This document shows positions 13,934 through 26,994 of a stretch of DNA of 64,000 nt, piece by piece. Source of the DNA: Vibrio sp. HB236076 (GTDB lineage: Bacteria; Pseudomonadota; Gammaproteobacteria; Enterobacterales; Vibrionaceae); assembly GCF_040957575.1 (NCBI RefSeq), contig NZ_CP162602.1, positions 124,001-188,000 of the forward strand. Direction: 5' to 3'. The position numbers and the translations under genes are program-made. Under the pieces are notes generated by a model. The model was not told where the DNA came from. It did not search any database and worked only from the letters and a program-made list of their open reading frames with translations. How positions within the stretch are numbered: position 1 is the first letter of the stretch; every line of letters begins with the position of its first letter.

Positions 13934-14374
13934 TTAAGTGAAAAAAGTCAGCAAGGTGCCCAAGTAAAAGCCACCACATATGGCAACACCATAGGGAATG
14001 CCTTTGTCTTTAATGCTATGGTTTCCATTTTTTTTACAAAATATGTGTTTTATTAAATAATACGTTGCTTGGATACCGCCAATCAAAGCCATAAGCATTA
14101 ATGCATCATCGATAAAACTCATATCAGTACCGAGAGCAAATATCGTGGCTAATTTCACATCCCCAGCAGCAATAACTCTGAGTAAAAATAATGAAAAACC
14201 ACCAACAAAAATAACTAAGCTCGATAGCCAATAAAGATGCTCAAAATAGATAAGAAAAGCACATTGAAACATCAGAAACAAAAAGAGATCGAGATTTTTT
14301 ATCTTTCTTTTTTTAATGTCCCAATAGCTAAAGTGTAAATAAAAAAGTGAAAGAAAAATTAAGTAATCAGTCAA
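13934..14374 (-). CDS. tadV: Flp prepilin peptidase TadV (CpaA)
   Basis: 146 residues, polytopic (about four to five membrane helices), size normal for the short TadV/CpaA class. The two aspartates of type IV prepilin peptidases are visible: one in SYWDIKKRKI (about residue 19) and one in the AAGDVKL motif near residue 71. It cleaves Flp, TadE and TadF leaders at the cytoplasmic face. The start is TTG at 14374 with no good ribosome-binding site. It lies six bases from the foot of a perfect hairpin (14381-14402), so translation may be limited or controlled. The region is more AT-rich than the rest of the locus. Confidence 0.9.
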   Translation of the reverse strand: MTDYLIFLSLFYLHFSYWDIKKRKIKNLDLFLFLMFQCAFLIYFEHLYWLSSLVIFVGGFSLFLLRVIAAGDVKLATIFALGTDMSFIDDALMLMALIGGIQATYYLIKHIFCKKNGNHSIKDKGIPYGVAICGGFYLGTLLTFFT

Positions 14375-19223: not shown

Positions 19224-22200
19224 TTAGGTCTCAATCTTCTGAGGCTCGAATGGATTGACACCTAACCAATAAATGTCTTCGTTGGTGGCACTGTTGACCG
19301 CACGAATGGTTCGGTTGCGGCCGCCCTCTTTGGCTTTAAGCAGGGCTTCGTCTGCCAATCGAAATAGCGGTTCAATTTCAAACAGGGAGTAACTGTCACA
19401 AAGGCCGATACTGACGGTCAGTCTCATGCCTGGGGCTATGTGATCAAAGTGTTTATCGGCAATGGTTTGTCGCAATTGATCAACGTATTGATCAACCTCT
19501 TTTCGATTGCCTTTTAACAACAAGGTAAATTCTTCACCGCCCCAGCGCGCCACAGCCAAGGGATCATCAAAATGGTGACGAAGTATCGTCGCCACGCTGG
19601 TGATGGCCTGATCGCCGTGTAAGTGTGAGTAATTATCGTTGATTTTCTTAAAGAAATCGATATCAACAATGGCTAAATGCAACAGTTCATGACTTTGCTG
19701 ACACGCTTGAAATTGCGCTTTTATATGCTGGTTAAAGGCGCGGCGATTGGCCAACCCTGTCAAGGAATCCTCATGAGACAACTGTTCAAATCGTTTTGCT
19801 TGCCGCTGCAGTTCTTGGGTCTTTTCTGTCACTAAACGAGCGAGCTTTTTCTGGTTGAGTTTTAACTGCCTCACTCGCAACAAGATAATGCCAATGACCA
19901 AGGACACCATAGAAAGAATGAGAAGCGCCTGCACCCAACTTTTTTGCCACCAAAAAGGCAAAATCGTAAAGCTAATGGCGGCTGGGGTGTTGCTCCATTC
20001 GCCATATGGAAAACGGGTACTGACCAAGAATTGGTACTGGCCGGGCGGTAAATTGGTGTATTCGACTACGGTTTGCTTACCGCGAAACGTCCATTGCTGG
20101 TTAAAGTTTTCCAACCGAGTGCGATACTCCAAACCATCGGCCATCACATAAGACAGACCCGCGTATTGAATCGACACACGACTGGTACCGGGATTGGCAA
20201 TGCGATCGCCCTGAGTAGAGACAGACTGATTATCAAAGTGCAGGTTTTCAATCACTATCGGGGTCATCATGCTGTGCTGTTTATCAATATCAAGCGGATT
20301 AACGGTGGCCACCCCTTGCGCGGTCGCGACATAAAGCCGGCCTTGTGAGAAGGTGGCAGCAGGGTTTGAACCACCATTACTTTGACTGCTGGACAAACCA
20401 TCGTTTTTGTCAAAATGCTCAAACTTGATCGTTTCATCTTGGCCGTCGGCAACTTGATTTAACTGCTGGTAGTTGAGTTTCCAAATACCGCGATTACTGG
20501 TGAGCCAAATATTGTCTCTTTGATGCACAAACTGAAAAAATTTATCGATCGGAAAGCCTTTATTGCGCCCGACCATCACCAGATGGCCACTTTCACGATC
20601 GTAACGAACAATGCCGCGATCTGTGGTGAACCAGAGGTAGTCGATATCAATATCGATATCAAAAATATAGCGAGGGTCTTCATGATCGCGAAGATCAAAC
20701 GTCTCTATCTGGCCTTGAGGAGAAATGGTGGCCACGCCATTGCCCGTTCCTACCCATATATTCCCCTGACTGTCTTCAGCCAAACTGATAATGAAGTTGG
20801 ACGGCAAACCAGAATGGGTATCGTAAAGGACTTTCTCTCCATTGGCCTGGGACAACAGCAGGCCTTCCGCCGTCCCTACCCATAAATCACCATTGGCTTG
20901 CGAAAGTAAAGAATGGACTTCGTTATCGGGTAAGCCATTGTCAATCGAAAGATAAGGTGACAACTGGCCCGCCTGCCAAATTAACAGGCCTTGCCTTGAG
21001 GTGCCGACGAACACCTTATTGAGTGAGGGACTGTCTTGACGATAATCAAGGGATAAACTGAGCACCGACGCGTGTTTAATTGGGCTATATTGTGAAATCG
21101 CATTGACCGCTTGTGTCCCCATGACTAGGCTAAGGCCTCGGTTGGTGCCGGCCAGCAAGTGATCGGGCGTCATTGCGATGACCGCGCGTGTATAACTACC
21201 GATTAAGCCTTGTGAAGGGCTGATTGTGACGAAAGGGGCTTGTCGTAAACGCATGAGTCCGCCGTTGGTACCTACCCAAATACTCCCTTGGTCATCGGCG
21301 TACCAAGACAGCACCTTGTTGTCTAACCCCTTATTGTGTTCTAAATACTCTAATGTACCCGCCGGTGACATGCGCGCAATGCCTTGCTCAGTACCAATCC
21401 AATAATGAAACAAACAATCTTGCTCGATGAGGGAAATACTCTGCCCTTTCAACGCTTCACTGAGAGAGGTAAACGCCTTACCGTCGTAACGCCAGATGCC
21501 ATTGTCGGTCGCCAGCAGCAGGTTACCTTGATGGTCTTTGGTTAGGTAATGAATTTTTTGAAATTGGTAACTGTGGATCAACTGCGGCTGATGGCGCTTG
21601 ATCTGATACAAACCTTTGCTGGTCGCCACATAGAGTAACTGCTCGCCCATGGCCACAATTTGATACGCCGTCACCCCTTGAATCAGCCACTGATCATGGC
21701 TGTATTTGCCACTGCCTAGATATCGACGAAACGCCAAGCCACTGTCTTCAACCGCTAACCACAACCCTTGATGTTGATCGGTATACACATCGTGAATTAA
21801 ATTGTTGGCAGGGGGTTGAGGGTGCCAGCGGCCGAGTTGTAAATAGGTTAATGAGCCCCGTGTCCCCGCGACCCAAAGCCGATTAAATCGGTCGCGTTTG
21901 AGCACATTCGTCCCAGAGTCCGACATACCCGTTTGAGGTGAGCGAAGAAAGTTTGTGAAACTTTTTCCATTGTAACGCGAGGCGCCTTCCCAAGTGCCAA
22001 ACCACAAATAACCATCTTGAGTCTGGGCTATGGCGTTGATGCTGTTATGAGGTAAACCATCACTGGTTGTCCAGGTATCGATAAAATAATCGGCGATGTG
22101 CGTAGGGGCTTCGACCAACTTGGCGAAAACGAACGAGGGATAACTAAGAGTAAGCCACAAAATCAACACCACGAAACCGTTATGCACAATACCTAGGTTA

Positions 22201-22259
22201 CGCATCGTCCCTAAATGACGTTTAATACGGATTTCATGATTTGATGACATTAATTCCAT
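19224..22259 (-). CDS. Propeller-sensor diguanylate cyclase (Reg_prop, Y_Y_Y, GGDEF)
   Basis: About 1011 residues from the ATG at 22259; starts at 22250 and 22205 are also possible, the last giving the neatest signal peptide. The N-terminus has a membrane signal (VVLILWLTLSYPSFVFA). About 650 residues of two-component-regulator propeller repeats follow (DGYLWFGTWEGASRYNG, GSIWVGTNGGLMRL, GNIWVGTGNGVATI), then a Y_Y_Y domain (FRGKQTVVEYTNLPPGQYQF), a membrane helix (about 775-795), a short coiled coil and a GGDEF domain with an intact WGGEEF active site. There is no RxxD inhibitory site at the usual place. It probably makes cyclic di-GMP in response to a periplasmic ligand. Confidence 0.9.
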   Translation of the reverse strand: MELMSSNHEIRIKRHLGTMRNLGIVHNGFVVLILWLTLSYPSFVFAKLVEAPTHIADYFIDTWTTSDGLPHNSINAIAQTQDGYLWFGTWEGASRYNGKSFTNFLRSPQTGMSDSGTNVLKRDRFNRLWVAGTRGSLTYLQLGRWHPQPPANNLIHDVYTDQHQGLWLAVEDSGLAFRRYLGSGKYSHDQWLIQGVTAYQIVAMGEQLLYVATSKGLYQIKRHQPQLIHSYQFQKIHYLTKDHQGNLLLATDNGIWRYDGKAFTSLSEALKGQSISLIEQDCLFHYWIGTEQGIARMSPAGTLEYLEHNKGLDNKVLSWYADDQGSIWVGTNGGLMRLRQAPFVTISPSQGLIGSYTRAVIAMTPDHLLAGTNRGLSLVMGTQAVNAISQYSPIKHASVLSLSLDYRQDSPSLNKVFVGTSRQGLLIWQAGQLSPYLSIDNGLPDNEVHSLLSQANGDLWVGTAEGLLLSQANGEKVLYDTHSGLPSNFIISLAEDSQGNIWVGTGNGVATISPQGQIETFDLRDHEDPRYIFDIDIDIDYLWFTTDRGIVRYDRESGHLVMVGRNKGFPIDKFFQFVHQRDNIWLTSNRGIWKLNYQQLNQVADGQDETIKFEHFDKNDGLSSSQSNGGSNPAATFSQGRLYVATAQGVATVNPLDIDKQHSMMTPIVIENLHFDNQSVSTQGDRIANPGTSRVSIQYAGLSYVMADGLEYRTRLENFNQQWTFRGKQTVVEYTNLPPGQYQFLVSTRFPYGEWSNTPAAISFTILPFWWQKSWVQALLILSMVSLVIGIILLRVRQLKLNQKKLARLVTEKTQELQRQAKRFEQLSHEDSLTGLANRRAFNQHIKAQFQACQQSHELLHLAIVDIDFFKKINDNYSHLHGDQAITSVATILRHHFDDPLAVARWGGEEFTLLLKGNRKEVDQYVDQLRQTIADKHFDHIAPGMRLTVSIGLCDSYSLFEIEPLFRLADEALLKAKEGGRNRTIRAVNSATNEDIYWLGVNPFEPQKIET

Positions 22260-22740
22260 TAATGCTCTGCCTGATCTACATATTGTTGATAATACTATCA
22301 CAGAGCAATCGGGTTGTTGTACGATTAGGCGAATAAATACAGTGATCAAACTCACTTTTTATATGACACCATACGGTATATCGTGTATTTCAATGCGCCA
22401 ACGCTTTTTAAGCCATGAACGACAATCGAGAAAACGTGATCTTTTTTCATCAGCTTGCAGGCTCAACCATAACGAAATGACTTTTTTCTCCTCGCTTATC
22501 CGTCGTCACTCGGTTCAAAACCCCGCCTCACTTCGTTCAAAAAAGCAATGCAACCATCATTATTTCCCCACAAAAAGAACGCAACATCGCCATCTAGCGC
22601 AAATATCACACTGCGCCATTGTTATTTTACCGTCATAAAAGAAGTAACACTCTGTTAACTCAGTAAACCATCAATAACAGCCATAAAAGTTCAATTTTAA
22701 TTTCTCTTATAAATCATATAGATACTTAAAAAACCAGGCT
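22260..22740. other. Intergenic region without a supported gene
   Basis: This stretch separates the diguanylate cyclase from the peptide array. A 98-codon open frame on the plus strand (22342-22638) has no ribosome-binding site, no recognisable domain and an unusual composition, so I do not call it. Nothing else stands out. Confidence 0.5.
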
Positions 22741-22857
22741 CGAAAAAAATTTCATTTTTATTGATGCTAATTCGTCAATAATCTATTTCGTTATTTGATC
22801 TTTATCACACTTTTTGGGCTTGCTAACCTATTTACACGTTATCGGCACAGGCAAGTC
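22741..22857 (+). promoter_or_regulatory. Upstream region of peptide group 1, with candidate CRP site
   Basis: This region is strongly similar to 24307-24413 upstream of group 2, including TTTCATTTTTATTGATGC, the block AATCTATTTCGTT, a shared TTGCTA and ACGTTATC at equal spacing. A CRP-like site TTTGA-N6-TCACA lies at 22794-22809 (nine of ten consensus half-site bases). TATTTA at 22829-22834 would put it near -40, a class II position. The exact start is unknown. Confidence 0.55.
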
Positions 22858-22907: not shown

Positions 22908-23087
22908 ATGATTAAACAAATTACTGCTGCACTACTCGCTGTTTCTTTTATCGCTGCGCCAGCGGCTATGGCGGCAACTTCAGGTGACAAAGGCGGCGTT
23001 CACGCCAACCACCAAGCTGATAAAGCCGGTCAACAAGCGCAATACATCAAGATCGTTGGCGTGTCTGAGAATAACCACCAACGTTAA
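22908..23087 (+). CDS. Small exported peptide, type A (copy 1 of 7)
   Basis: 59 residues, preceded by AAGAGGG at ribosome-binding distance. Residues 1-22 are a Sec signal peptide (MIKQITAALLAVSF, then APAAMA, cleavage after AMA). The mature type-A part of about 37 residues has SGDKGGVHANHQADKAG, then the core YIKIVGVSE and a polar tail NNHQR. There is no Cys and no lipobox. It is the first of seven paralogs; its DNA is nearly identical to copies 2 and 6. Function is unknown and I recognise no family. The conserved signal, ribosome sites and core across all seven argue that these are real translated genes. Confidence 0.85.
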   Translation: MIKQITAALLAVSFIAAPAAMAATSGDKGGVHANHQADKAGQQAQYIKIVGVSENNHQR

Positions 23088-23142
23088 TCTCTGAATTAAC
23101 ACTGCTAATCACACAACACTGAACTCTATTGAGGATTTGACT

Positions 23143-23322
23143 ATGTTGAAACAAATTACTGCTGTATTCCTTGCTGCTTCTTTTATCGCTGCGCCAGCGG
23201 CTATGGCGGCAACTTCAGGTGACAAAGGCGGCGTTCATGCCAACCACCAAGCTGATAAAGCCGGTCAACAAGCGCAATACATCAAGATCGTTGGCGTGTC
23301 TGAGCACAATAACCAGCGTTAA
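23143..23322 (+). CDS. Small exported peptide, type A (copy 2 of 7)
   Basis: 59 residues from the ATG at 23143, preceded by GAGGATTTGACT; a TTG six bases upstream is in frame but less likely. Signal peptide MLKQITAVFLAASF to AMA. The mature part repeats type A (SGDKGGVHANHQADKAGQQ) and ends YIKIVGVSEHNNQR. The spacing from copy 1 is 55 bases, suggesting one transcript. The coding DNA for the mature part differs from copy 1 by only a few bases, pointing to recent duplication or gene conversion. Confidence 0.85.
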   Translation: MLKQITAVFLAASFIAAPAAMAATSGDKGGVHANHQADKAGQQAQYIKIVGVSEHNNQR

Positions 23323-23401
23323 TCGGTATTAAGCCGCTCAATGGCTGTTTATACACTGATTGCACTATGACGTATTTTTATCGTTCTAAGAGGAAATAAC
23401 T

Positions 23402-23554
23402 ATGATTAAACAACTGACTGCTGCTTTACTTGCTGTTTCGTTCATCGCTGCACCTGCTATGGCTGCATCACAACAAAACGAACAAAATCAAGGTAAGCCT
23501 GCTGATTACATTAAAATTGTTGGTGTTTCTGAGTACAACAACAATGGCAACTAA
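23402..23554 (+). CDS. Small exported peptide, type B (copy 3 of 7)
   Basis: 50 residues, ribosome site AGAGGAAATAACT. Signal peptide MIKQLTAALLAVSF to AMA (residues 1-21). The mature type-B part is about 29 residues: a short Gln/Asn-rich stretch, QGKPADYIKIVGVSE, then YNNNGN. It lacks the GDKGGVHANHQ segment of type A but keeps the core. It closes group 1 (A-A-B). Too short for automatic gene callers at common cut-offs. Confidence 0.83.
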   Translation: MIKQLTAALLAVSFIAAPAMAASQQNEQNQGKPADYIKIVGVSEYNNNGN

Positions 23555-23577
23555 TTTGCCGCAGCAAAAAACATTAC

Positions 23578-23692
23578 ATTGGTAGGGAAACCAAATGTTG
23601 ACAAAGCAATGCTTAATAAGCAAAAAATCTATTGATTTCGGGGCAGAAGTACAGTGAAAAAGTCATTTTTCCTGATGCCCCTGATTTCTAAA
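23578..23692 (+). promoter_or_regulatory. 3' element of peptide group 1
   Basis: The stretch 23578-23601 (ATTGGTAGGGAAACCAAATG and four more bases) matches 25417-25440 after group 2 with only a few differences, and can form a TTGG/CCAA hairpin. Downstream, GGGGCA (23640-23645) and TGCCCC around 23676 can pair, enclosing GAAAAA/TTTTTC. It may be a transcript end or stabiliser; no U-run follows. Confidence 0.4.
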
Positions 23693-23699
23693 TTATTGA

Positions 23700-24300
23700 C
23701 TCATTTCATCAAAAAAATTAGCAATCTCCTTGCCTAAATAACAAACTTCTTTACCGATCAACTTCTCTTATCATTAACAATATTAATTGATTGTTTTTTA
23801 TCCCTTCTATATTTCAATTTAGCCACGTTTAAAATACCCTGATTCACTCTGGCGTTATCACCACGACAAAAACCGTCTTTGGTCAAAACCAATCACCGTT
23901 AAAGCAATTTTCTTATAAACAACCTCATTGAATGTTTAATCTCCGCTGTTTTTTATTTCTCCACCAGGCTTTCAATCTCGCCCTTTTTAAGTAATCAAGG
24001 TGACAGTTAAATACATTTTAGAGGGCATGCCAATAACGAATTAGACTTAACAAGACCTGCGAAAAATAAGAAAAAACATCGACATCACTTTTCTATTCTC
24101 ATTCACTAAAAAGTAGCCATCAGCGTATTCGTGAATACTTAATTGGTGTTCATCGGTTAATGAAAATCGAACGCCAAGCTCTATTCACTTCAAAGACAAA
24201 AAAATTTGTACTTTCTACGACCAAACAAGGTCGACAAGGCGATACAAAAAAGAAAAATAAAAATTTAATTCAATAAAATCAACATCATAGTCAAAATCGC
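23700..24300. other. Intergenic region between the two peptide groups
   Basis: An AT-rich gap of about 600 bases separates the 3' element of group 1 from the duplicated promoter of group 2. I looked for an eighth paralog or a remnant (signal-peptide or YIKIVGVS coding) and saw none. No other gene is supported. Confidence 0.5.
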
Positions 24301-24306
24301 AAGGTA

Positions 24307-24413
24307 AGAAAAACTTTCATTTTTATTGATGCGGATTTGTCATTAATCTATTTCGTTTTTTGATGTTTATCACACTTCTGGCCCTTGCTATTATCACCCC
24401 ACGTTATCAATGA
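24307..24413 (+). promoter_or_regulatory. Upstream region of peptide group 2, with candidate CRP site
   Basis: Near-duplicate of the region before group 1. The CRP-like site TTTGA-TGTTTA-TCACA lies at 24359-24374. An extended -10 (TGC followed by TATTAT at 24389-24394) is present. The conserved spacing between the CRP-like site, TTGCTA and ACGTTATC in both copies supports function. Confidence 0.55.
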
Positions 24414-24448
24414 CGACAAACATTCAACCAATCAATGAGGAATTGACT

Positions 24449-24625
24449 ATGACTAAATTAATGACTGCTGCACTTATCGCTGCTTCTTTTATCGCTGCCC
24501 CTGCTATGGCAAATACCTCAGGCGACAAAGGCGGCGTTCACGCTAACCACCAAGCAAATAAAGCAGGCCAACAAGCTCAATATATCAAAATCGTTGGTGT
24601 TTCTGAGAATAACCATCAGCGTTAA
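24449..24625 (+). CDS. Small exported peptide, type A (copy 4 of 7)
   Basis: 58 residues from the ATG at 24449, preceded by GAGGAATTGACT; a longer in-frame start at 24410 lies inside the promoter-like region and is rejected. Signal MTKLMTAALIAASF to AMA. Mature part NTSGDKGGVHANHQANKAG, core YIKIVGVSE, tail NNHQR. It is the most diverged of the type-A genes at the DNA level, mostly by synonymous changes, so the protein sequence appears to be under purifying selection. It opens group 2. Confidence 0.85.
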   Translation: MTKLMTAALIAASFIAAPAMANTSGDKGGVHANHQANKAGQQAQYIKIVGVSENNHQR

Positions 24626-24726
24626 TTAAACTCAGCTAATAAAGACACCCGTCATTAAGGTGTGTTGCATTTATTATTAAGACTGTTAAACAATACTATT
24701 TAAAATTAAAAAAAGAGGAATATATC

Positions 24727-24891
24727 ATGGTTAAACACATTACTGCTGCCCTACTAGCTGTTTCTTTTATTGCTGCCCCCGTTATGGCCGCTGAGCAAAA
24801 CACGACAAAACAACCACAAAGCCAACAGCAAGGCAAACCCGCTGACTACATCAAAATCGTCGGTGTGTCTGAGAACAACAAACAACGCTAA
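24727..24891 (+). CDS. Small exported peptide, type B (copy 5 of 7)
   Basis: 54 residues, ribosome site AGAGGAATATATC. Signal MVKHITAALLAVSF to VMA. The mature type-B part is EQNTTKQPQSQQQGKPAD, core YIKIVGVSE, tail NNKQR. The tail resembles type A, while the body is type B, so tails and bodies are partly shuffled between types. No Cys. Confidence 0.83.
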   Translation: MVKHITAALLAVSFIAAPVMAAEQNTTKQPQSQQQGKPADYIKIVGVSENNKQR

Positions 24892-24965
24892 GTGCTATAC
24901 ATGGTTCGTTTATTTTAAACCATTGAACGAACAAGAAAACTTATTCAATTAACGAGGATATTATC

Positions 24966-25142
24966 ATGACTAAATTATTTACTGCTGCATTGCTTGCTGC
25001 TTCTTTTATTGCTGCCCCTGCTATGGCAAATACCTCAGGTGACAAAGGCGGCGTTCACGCCAACCACCAAGCTGATAAAGCCGGTCAACAAGCGCAATAC
25101 ATCAAGATCGTTGGCGTGTCTGAGCACAATAACCAACGTTAA
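24966..25142 (+). CDS. Small exported peptide, type A (copy 6 of 7)
   Basis: 58 residues, ribosome site CGAGGATATTATC. Signal MTKLFTAALLAASF to AMA, close to copy 4. The mature region (SGDKGGVHANHQADKAG, core YIKIVGVSE, tail HNNQR) is almost identical in DNA to copy 2 although its signal region matches copy 4. That mosaic suggests gene conversion of the mature part between the two groups. Confidence 0.85.
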   Translation: MTKLFTAALLAASFIAAPAMANTSGDKGGVHANHQADKAGQQAQYIKIVGVSEHNNQR

Positions 25143-25240
25143 TCCGTTGTTGTCGCAGTAAAGTGCGACTCCGTGAGCTCATGATTGGCTATAGCCACGA
25201 GCGTAATAACCATCACATTGAATGAAAGAGAGGATTTATC

Positions 25241-25393
25241 ATGATTAAATCATTCACTGCAGCACTACTCGCGGTTTCCTTTATCGCTGCGCCCGCAATG
25301 GCGGCATCGAAAGCGGATGAACAACCGCAAGGCAAACCTGCTGATTACATTAAGATTGTTGGCGTTTCAAAATACAACAACAACGGTAACTAA
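25241..25393 (+). CDS. Small exported peptide, type B (copy 7 of 7)
   Basis: 50 residues, ribosome site AGAGGATTTATC. Signal MIKSFTAALLAVSF to AMA. Mature part ASKADEQPQGKPAD, core YIKIVGVS, tail KYNNNGN, closely matching copy 3. It closes group 2 (A-B-A-B) and is followed by the shared 3' element and a strong hairpin. Function unknown. Confidence 0.83.
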   Translation: MIKSFTAALLAVSFIAAPAMAASKADEQPQGKPADYIKIVGVSKYNNNGN

Positions 25394-25446
25394 TCCGTTT
25401 GCGCGGATAACACTCGATTGGTAAGGATGCCAAATGTTGATTAAAA

Positions 25447-25525
25447 ATGACCTGATCAAATCAGGGAAAGCGAACACATAATAAGAAATCACTGTGTCAC
25501 GCCCCTGATTTGATGTCATGTTTTT
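25447..25525 (+). terminator. Structured terminator after peptide group 2
   Basis: A 12-base perfect stem ATCAAATCAGGG (25455-25466) / CCCTGATTTGAT (25503-25514) is extended by ATGAC/GTCAT across a 3-base bulge and followed by GTTTTT. The 36-base loop can itself fold through ACACA/TGTGT. It fits an intrinsic terminator with an unusually large, structured loop. Confidence 0.65.
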
Positions 25526-25605: not shown

Positions 25606-25836
25606 TCAGCTCTGTTTATCATTCGATTTTAACGGCTTGATAATCTCATCTAACCCTTCAATCTTCAGTGCCAAACACAACTGCATCAGCTCGCCCAATT
25701 CTCCACGGGGAAACTCACTTTTGTTGGCAAACCACAGCAGATACTCCTCTGGCAAATCGATCAACAATCGCCCAGCGTATTTACCAAATGGCATCTTGTA
25801 CTCGACAAGCTGTAATATTTGCTCTTTTTGTATCAT
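25606..25836 (-). CDS. DUF3820 family protein
   Basis: 76 residues with the DUF3820 signature MPFGKYAGRLLIDLPEEYLLWF and the following GELGELMQLCLALK. The ATG at 25836 is preceded by GGGGAG. These small proteins are widespread in gammaproteobacteria; some are annotated as quorum-regulated virulence factors, but I know of no firm biochemical role. It is convergent with the peptide array. Confidence 0.88.
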   Translation of the reverse strand: MIQKEQILQLVEYKMPFGKYAGRLLIDLPEEYLLWFANKSEFPRGELGELMQLCLALKIEGLDEIIKPLKSNDKQS

Positions 25837-26473: not shown

Positions 26474-26818
26474 TTATTTACCCGTTAAAACCGGTGCGGT
26501 AAATGACACCCCTTGCCACCCGAAACGAATAAAATTACGAATATTCTGATGATCGTCATTGTCTGGGTGTTGTAGAACGTCTTGGCGGTAAAAACGACCA
26601 AAACAGTGTAAGGTATCTTGCTCTGATAGCCCTTCTTCTATACCGAACGCCAAAATTTTAGCCGAACCATTGTTCTGACCCGCGGCGTTTTGTACCTCAC
26701 CATTGGTAAAATCGGCGGCGCTAAAGGTATAGTGTGCATCAATCACCGCCATAGTTTGCTCAAACTCGATTCCTTGTGGGTTGGCTTTTAACTCGGCTAA
26801 GAACTCATTTTTATTCAC
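26474..26818 (-). CDS. HopJ-family protein
   Basis: 114 residues from the GTG at 26818, seven bases after AAGGA; a TTG further upstream is weaker. The protein matches the HopJ (type III effector HopJ-like) family: FTNGEVQNAAGQNNGSAKIL, FGRFYRQDVL and NIRNFIRFGW. The family name comes from Pseudomonas, but free-living vibrios carry it without an associated secretion signal; here no secretion system is nearby, so an effector role is doubtful. Confidence 0.82.
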   Translation of the reverse strand: MNKNEFLAELKANPQGIEFEQTMAVIDAHYTFSAADFTNGEVQNAAGQNNGSAKILAFGIEEGLSEQDTLHCFGRFYRQDVLQHPDNDDHQNIRNFIRFGWQGVSFTAPVLTGK

Positions 26819-26994
26819 TCGGTTTTCCTTTTCTTTCAATAAAATGTGATGTTTAACTCAATATGAATTGCGCTTTTATCATAACGGGCTTTCGACATGC
26901 TTTCATCATTTTAACGGCATAAAAATGACATATAACTTTTCTAGGCTTGAGTCGAATTTTTGTCGTTTATTATTTGTCATGAAGGATATGACCC

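Follow-up and report, generated by a model that had tools for sequence, protein, structure and literature searches.

A narrowly distributed family of small, predicted exported peptides encoded in two duplicated gene blocks of Vibrio sp. HB236076

Class II microcins and Sec-exported bacteriocins are short ribosomal peptides, curli-type functional amyloids are exported, polar and beta-prone, and the YdgH/BhsA-like proteins (PF07338, DUF1471) and the BRANT His-rich proteins (NCBIfam model NF047414) are small and exported. Vibrio sp. HB236076, with a genome of 3.88 Mb in two contigs, carries on its second contig, in a window of 64,000 nt, seven plus-strand genes (22908-25393) for Sec-type precursors of 50 to 59 residues, four of type A and three of type B, all of which have the core YIKIVGVS near the C-terminus. 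They constitute a real, unusual and narrowly spread peptide family that is placed in no known family: with the peptides, every Pfam, NCBIfam and PADLOC model fell short of its cut-off or limit, and no description of the family was found among the titles and abstract openings covered by the literature search. An earlier note on this DNA had left the peptides without a family of known function, and none was found for them here.

Unlike class II microcins, the array peptides have AxA-type Sec signals, and a double-glycine leader and an adjacent exporter and immunity gene are absent. None of the seven contains cysteine and their signals end in AMA or VMA, so there is no lipobox, and the claim of the earlier note that neither the double-glycine bacteriocin class nor the bacterial lipoprotein class fits is borne out. 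Curli could work alike, but each array peptide has one short core, none of the seven matches a curlin-repeat model of Pfam (expectation value E ≤1), and a Pfam scan of the neighbours revealed no curli-like secretion genes next to the array. The BRANT model matches all seven peptides (E 8.8e-11 to 2.7e-5), but the best of them scores 42.7 bits, below the curated cut-off of 44, which was exceeded in 0 of 196 genomes of the genus. Two signal peptides scored alone reach 24.8 and 28 bits, four of four mature parts scored alone give no match, and the mature parts, with 0-3 histidines each, are not His-rich; BRANT membership was rejected, the match resting mainly on the signal and the score being below the cut-off.

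The peptides contain an ADxAG...YxI stretch that presumably resembles the YdgH/BhsA-like domain. PF07338 has no match at the array (E ≤1), the genome's two hits to this model (E 0.059 and 0.849) lying on contig 1, and a profile comparison with E. coli BhsA aligned one column at a probability of 0.7%, so that a BhsA/DUF1471 identity was rejected. The family may already be covered by Pfam entry PF28279, the name, model and scope of which could not be read; it is precomputed on eight of the ten rows of the protein search described below, including P0010, a His-rich protein with likeness to the array family in its N-terminal part (E 0.17). Because this His-rich protein is also marked, the entry may describe mainly the N-terminal part. 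A relative of solved structure was rejected (two matches only, E 0.16 and 0.36), and PHROGs gave weak hits for two of four peptides (E 0.019 and 0.082).

Seven constrained genes in two duplicated blocks

The observation reported in the earlier note was confirmed, with corrections, and its interpretation is partly supported. All seven small open reading frames (ORFs) are present at the lengths it gave, each with GAGG 7-8 bases 5' of the ATG (the ribosome sites it had pointed out), a TAA stop, a Sec-like signal of lysine, a hydrophobic stretch and AMA or VMA, and the common core of its two types. Cleavage after AMA or VMA would yield mature parts of 29-37 residues, so that of the approximate range of 29 to 38 claimed before, the lower end stands and the upper end becomes 37; likewise, the motif QADKAG assigned to type A does not extend to A3, which reads QANKAG. 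What had been taken for a single consecutive array falls into two blocks, A1-A2-B1 and A3-B2-A4-B3, parted by an AT-rich spacer of 894 bases (23555-24448; G+C content 0.33 over 23600-24400) and preceded by separate duplicated upstream regions. The array is two duplicated operons, the genes having been copied along with their flanks, and each block would correspond to one transcription unit (Table 1).

The seven-gene pattern exceeds chance because the core is kept in all seven peptides despite variation of its codons, because the core occurs nowhere else in the window (seven occurrences in the six-frame translation, every one inside an array gene), and because the ratio of non-synonymous to synonymous substitutions (dN/dS, by the Nei-Gojobori method) is 0.05-0.33 in nine of nine within-type pairs. 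A search of the whole genome with the A1 protein (E ≤10) gave seven matches, all in the array. Of all 21 gene pairs, 20 give a finite ratio (0.05-0.57) and the remaining one has reached saturation, the A-B pairs being less reliable on account of unalignable linkers. Between B1 and B3, differences affect 69% of the synonymous sites and 9% of the non-synonymous ones, and in an alignment of 11 sequences, including four from another contig of 9,061 bases, YIKIVGVS is invariant (11/11). Constraint is concentrated in the core and the signal, and the linkers vary in length and content. The constraint on the seven genes and their coding capacity are well supported.

Within type A, A1, A2 and A4 are identical at 91-92 of 93 bases over the stretch TSG...VSE, as against 43-47 of 54 bases over codons 1-18, and A3 agrees with the other type A genes at 80-82 of the 93 bases; the mature parts of type A look like the product of homogenisation by gene conversion. 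Codon adaptation indices, computed against 30 ORFs from the tuf/ribosomal-protein region of the same genome (judged from their first residues, most are ribosomal, a few are others and at least one is possibly spurious), are 0.618-0.788 for the individual peptide genes and 0.691 for all combined, whereas the 40 ORFs of at least 200 residues in the window have a median of 0.446 and a maximum of 0.652. Among 1278 background stretches of 55 codons, the number that reaches a gene's value ranges from 0 for B1 up to 63 for B2. The codon usage looks close to ribosomal, suggesting strong expression, and this favours a bulk product over a trace signal.

The duplication extends into the flanks. Upstream, the segments 22711-22825 and 24276-24390 are 77% identical, and the 67-base element within them is bordered by sequence with 24 of 40 identities immediately 5' of it and 18 of 33 immediately 3' of it. 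The elements of both blocks contain TTTGAT[C/G]TTTATCACA, a site with one mismatch to the CRP-type consensus palindrome TGTGA-N6-TCACA and one to the FNR-type consensus palindrome TTGAT-N4-ATCAA; the case for a putative CRP/FNR-like site comes from the fact that both copies have kept it (15 of 16 bases). A promoter scan gave 9 candidates against 9.1 in shuffled sequences, no enrichment, and listed no plus-strand terminator. On the 3' side, ATTGGTARGGANNCCAAATGTTGA is found at exactly two places in the whole genome (≤2 mismatches), both behind the blocks, as a possible RNA element.

It could be the transcript that matters rather than the peptide, the blocks carrying structured or base-pairing RNA. 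The 24-base element has been kept after both blocks though B1 and B3 have diverged so far at synonymous sites, and strong hairpins follow it (Table 1). The element itself, however, folds no better than its shuffles (z -1.22 and -1.17), the better folding being confined to the longer hairpins beyond it, and dN/dS well under 1 together with ribosomal-like codons shows that selection acts on the protein. A known RNA family was rejected, Rfam giving no match at E ≤1. An RNA function in place of the peptides is very improbable.

Table 1. Features of the peptide array and its surroundings (window coordinates)
Feature	Position	Strand	Basis or remark
A1, type A exported peptide (predicted), 59 residues	22908-23087	+	ORF, signal pattern, core
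A2, type A exported peptide (predicted), 59 residues	23143-23322	+	ATG 23143 has ribosome site; start in ORF list TTG 23137
B1, type B exported peptide (predicted), 50 residues	23402-23554	+	ORF, signal pattern, core
A3, type A exported peptide (predicted), 58 residues	24449-24625	+	ATG 24449 has ribosome site; start in ORF list ATG 24410
B2, type B exported peptide (predicted), 54 residues	24727-24891	+	ORF, signal pattern, core
A4, type A exported peptide (predicted), 58 residues	24966-25142	+	ORF, signal pattern, core
B3, type B exported peptide (predicted), 50 residues	25241-25393	+	ORF, signal pattern, core
Block 1 upstream element	22751-22817	+	58/67 bases identical to 24316-24382; within repeat D5, 22711-22825
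Block 2 upstream element	24316-24382	+	58/67 bases identical to 22751-22817
Block 1 CRP/FNR-like site (putative regulator)	22794-22809	+	FNR-type match at 22795-22808
Block 2 CRP/FNR-like site (putative regulator)	24359-24374	+	One mismatch to each palindrome type
Candidate -10 hexamer TATTAT, preceded by TG	24389-24394	+	Promoter scan
24-base element 3' of block 1	23578-23601	+	ATTGGTARGGANNCCAAATGTTGA
24-base element 3' of block 2	25417-25440	+	ATTGGTARGGANNCCAAATGTTGA
Hairpin 3' of block 1, putatively terminator-like, no T run	23630-23702	+	-18.9 kcal/mol, z -2.72
Hairpin 3' of block 2, putatively terminator-like, then five T	25446-25522	+	-28 kcal/mol, z -5.34
Reg_prop/Y_Y_Y/GGDEF sensor, 1008 residues; candidate partner	19224-22250	-	Pfam; head-to-head with array
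QSregVF_b, 'putative quorum-sensing-regulated virulence factor'	25606-25836	-	PF12843, E 1.3e-28
HopJ-family protein	26477-26839	-	PF08888, E 9.8e-45
A24-type prepilin peptidase, nearest peptidase seen, 8.5 kb left of array	13937-14374	-	Pfam

Distribution of the peptides

By profile search the family is an orphan of narrow spread, present in one of 329 genomes of the taxonomic family. A profile of nine sequences (E ≤0.01) matched 26 of these genomes, but the core was spanned only in the window's own (seven matches); the other 25 match mainly over the signal, the best of them at E 1.2e-5 over positions 1-25, and the one that extends furthest runs to position 46, inside a frame of 37 residues that has a stop. 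When A1 alone was the query, matches at E ≤1 came from 38 of 196 genus genomes, the best outside the own genome (0.073) being at chance level. A protein database search (E ≤10) returned ten rows, five of which represent the window's own genome, and the only other clear relatives are P0002, P0004, P0008 and P0009, reported on the 9,061-base contig (source NCBI). The earlier note had named a lack of homologs outside this strain as a result that would refute it; this result did not materialise, diverged relatives being reported on another contig.

A1 had no match among 72,556 plasmid records or 50,697 phage records, nine pattern stretches in viral contigs and 280 in a collection of genome contigs were not confirmed in any instance, and all four of these searches may leave out records very near the window's genome. 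A plasmid or phage gene was rejected on the absence of plasmid and phage matches and of any confirmed viral stretch. For a mature peptide of 30 residues the sensitivity is low, and more distant relatives may exist.

A possible envelope or extracellular role

The reading ranked first, tentatively, is that these are envelope or secreted peptides, made in abundance and largely disordered, whose activity resides in a beta-prone core; it is placed first because constraint lies in the core and the signal, the linkers are variable, and the codon usage points to high output. The two duplicated operons, with a CRP/FNR-type regulator possibly acting on both, would be the source of this family of short peptides, abundant and exported through Sec, export being predicted from the signals, and signal peptidase I would release mature peptides of the above length that are mostly disordered. 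The working part may be the hydrophobic, beta-prone YIKIVGVS on its variable polar linker, acting in the periplasm or outside either by beta-strand addition to an envelope partner or by co-assembly with its own kind, and having several copies with strong codon bias would be a matter of dosage. This mechanism is weakly supported. Beta propensity in the three mature peptides scored peaks at YIKIVGV (1.37, against means of 0.96-0.97). An AlphaFold model of the A4 monomer has no confident fold, with a mean predicted local distance difference test score (pLDDT) of 57.9 and a predicted template modelling score of 0.15, and its highest block is residues 41-50, which contain most of the core (mean pLDDT 68).

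Several observations weigh against this picture. The A4 model gives the core no strand (no helix of four and no strand of three residues), and the Pfam scan of neighbours revealed no chaperone, secretion or nucleator gene next to the array. The codon values of B2 and B3 are matched by 63 and 51 of the 1278 background stretches. Sites of the kind found upstream are not rare in the window, CRP-like sites numbering 7 against 2.75 expected and FNR-like sites (≤1 mismatch) 14 against a shuffle mean of 4.35, the maximum among 100 shuffles being 11. The block 2 site is centred about -34.5 from the start predicted from TG-TATTAT, and the canonical centre of a CRP or FNR activator site is -41.5, so that activation and repression cannot be told apart. 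The very narrow distribution allows a dispensable young family.

Small, exported, multiplied peptides of two co-encoded types might instead be antimicrobial or kin-competition agents that are released to the medium and act jointly. The net charge without histidine, however, is only -1 to +2, a range that lends membrane lysis no support; outside the core, the mature part is polar. Immediately beside the array, Pfam detects neither an exporter nor an immunity gene or a protease, in agreement with the earlier note, and a known defence system was rejected, no defence model matching any of five proteins tried. Toxins often show a diversifying pattern, unlike the gene conversion and low dN/dS found here. 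An antimicrobial role is quite improbable.

The locus offers a clean case of a narrow family of tandem exported peptides, under purifying selection, with ribosomal-like codons and without a relative of known function, that has apparently been turned into a product made in bulk. A core that stays constant while the linker is swapped points to the functional segment, which is cheap to test with synthetic peptides.

The divergent sensor and other neighbours

The neighbour of most interest, absent from the earlier note, is the sensor gene that stands head-to-head with the array. By its architecture, the product is predicted to combine a periplasmic propeller with a cytoplasmic diguanylate cyclase, and the peptides could be its ligands, binding the propeller, perhaps by strand addition of YIKIVGVS, and controlling the cyclase in a local loop from peptide to cyclic di-GMP (c-di-GMP). 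A homologue of the sensor, P0012, identical at 761 of 982 positions (77%), comes from a contig with a reported length of 9,061 bases, and because contig size and source are the same as for the four related peptides, a second taxon probably has sensor and peptides linked as well. Such linkage could, however, be plain synteny between two related taxa, and the sensor occurs in 35 of the 329 family genomes (E ≤1e-100, two candidates scored per genome), as against one for the peptides.

For 20 of the other 34 sensor genes, the 3.8-4.0 kb that surround the gene start and extend upstream of it were read: the core was absent in 20 of 20, and small ORFs filtered for an ATG, a ribosome-site motif and a hydrophobic N-terminus formed no similar array; these orthologues sit in different gene neighbourhoods. 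A sensor search of genome contigs found the core in none of 80 loci (80 kept of 575 confirmed; best-segment identity ≤42%). Since 20 of 20 other orthologues examined lack the peptides, the sensor-ligand link is a lead only, and as the ribosomal-like codon usage also exceeds the need of a signal, a ligand role is unlikely. Distinctly unlikely is the fuller proposal in which two peptide types that share a single beta-strand core are produced in bulk, and this propeller cyclase either senses them or is the site of their assembly, as a dedicated, lineage-specific c-di-GMP input. If the sensor is the receptor, the Reg_prop-GGDEF architecture would gain a ligand; titles and abstract openings yielded no paper on a ligand of such sensors.

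To the right of the array lie genes for QSregVF_b, DUF1289/CWC and HopJ-family proteins. QSregVF_b, which adjoins the array, was detected (E ≤1e-6) in 27 of 31 relatives and is a common conserved gene; as a synteny anchor it was found in 60 of 227 genus genomes (E ≤1e-29), and its best relative, 77% identical, has different neighbours (locus L117). A choice-of-anchor neighbour, used in the same way, is present in 12 of 31 genomes. On the other side of the array, a run of minus-strand ORFs lies to the left of the A24-type prepilin peptidase gene.

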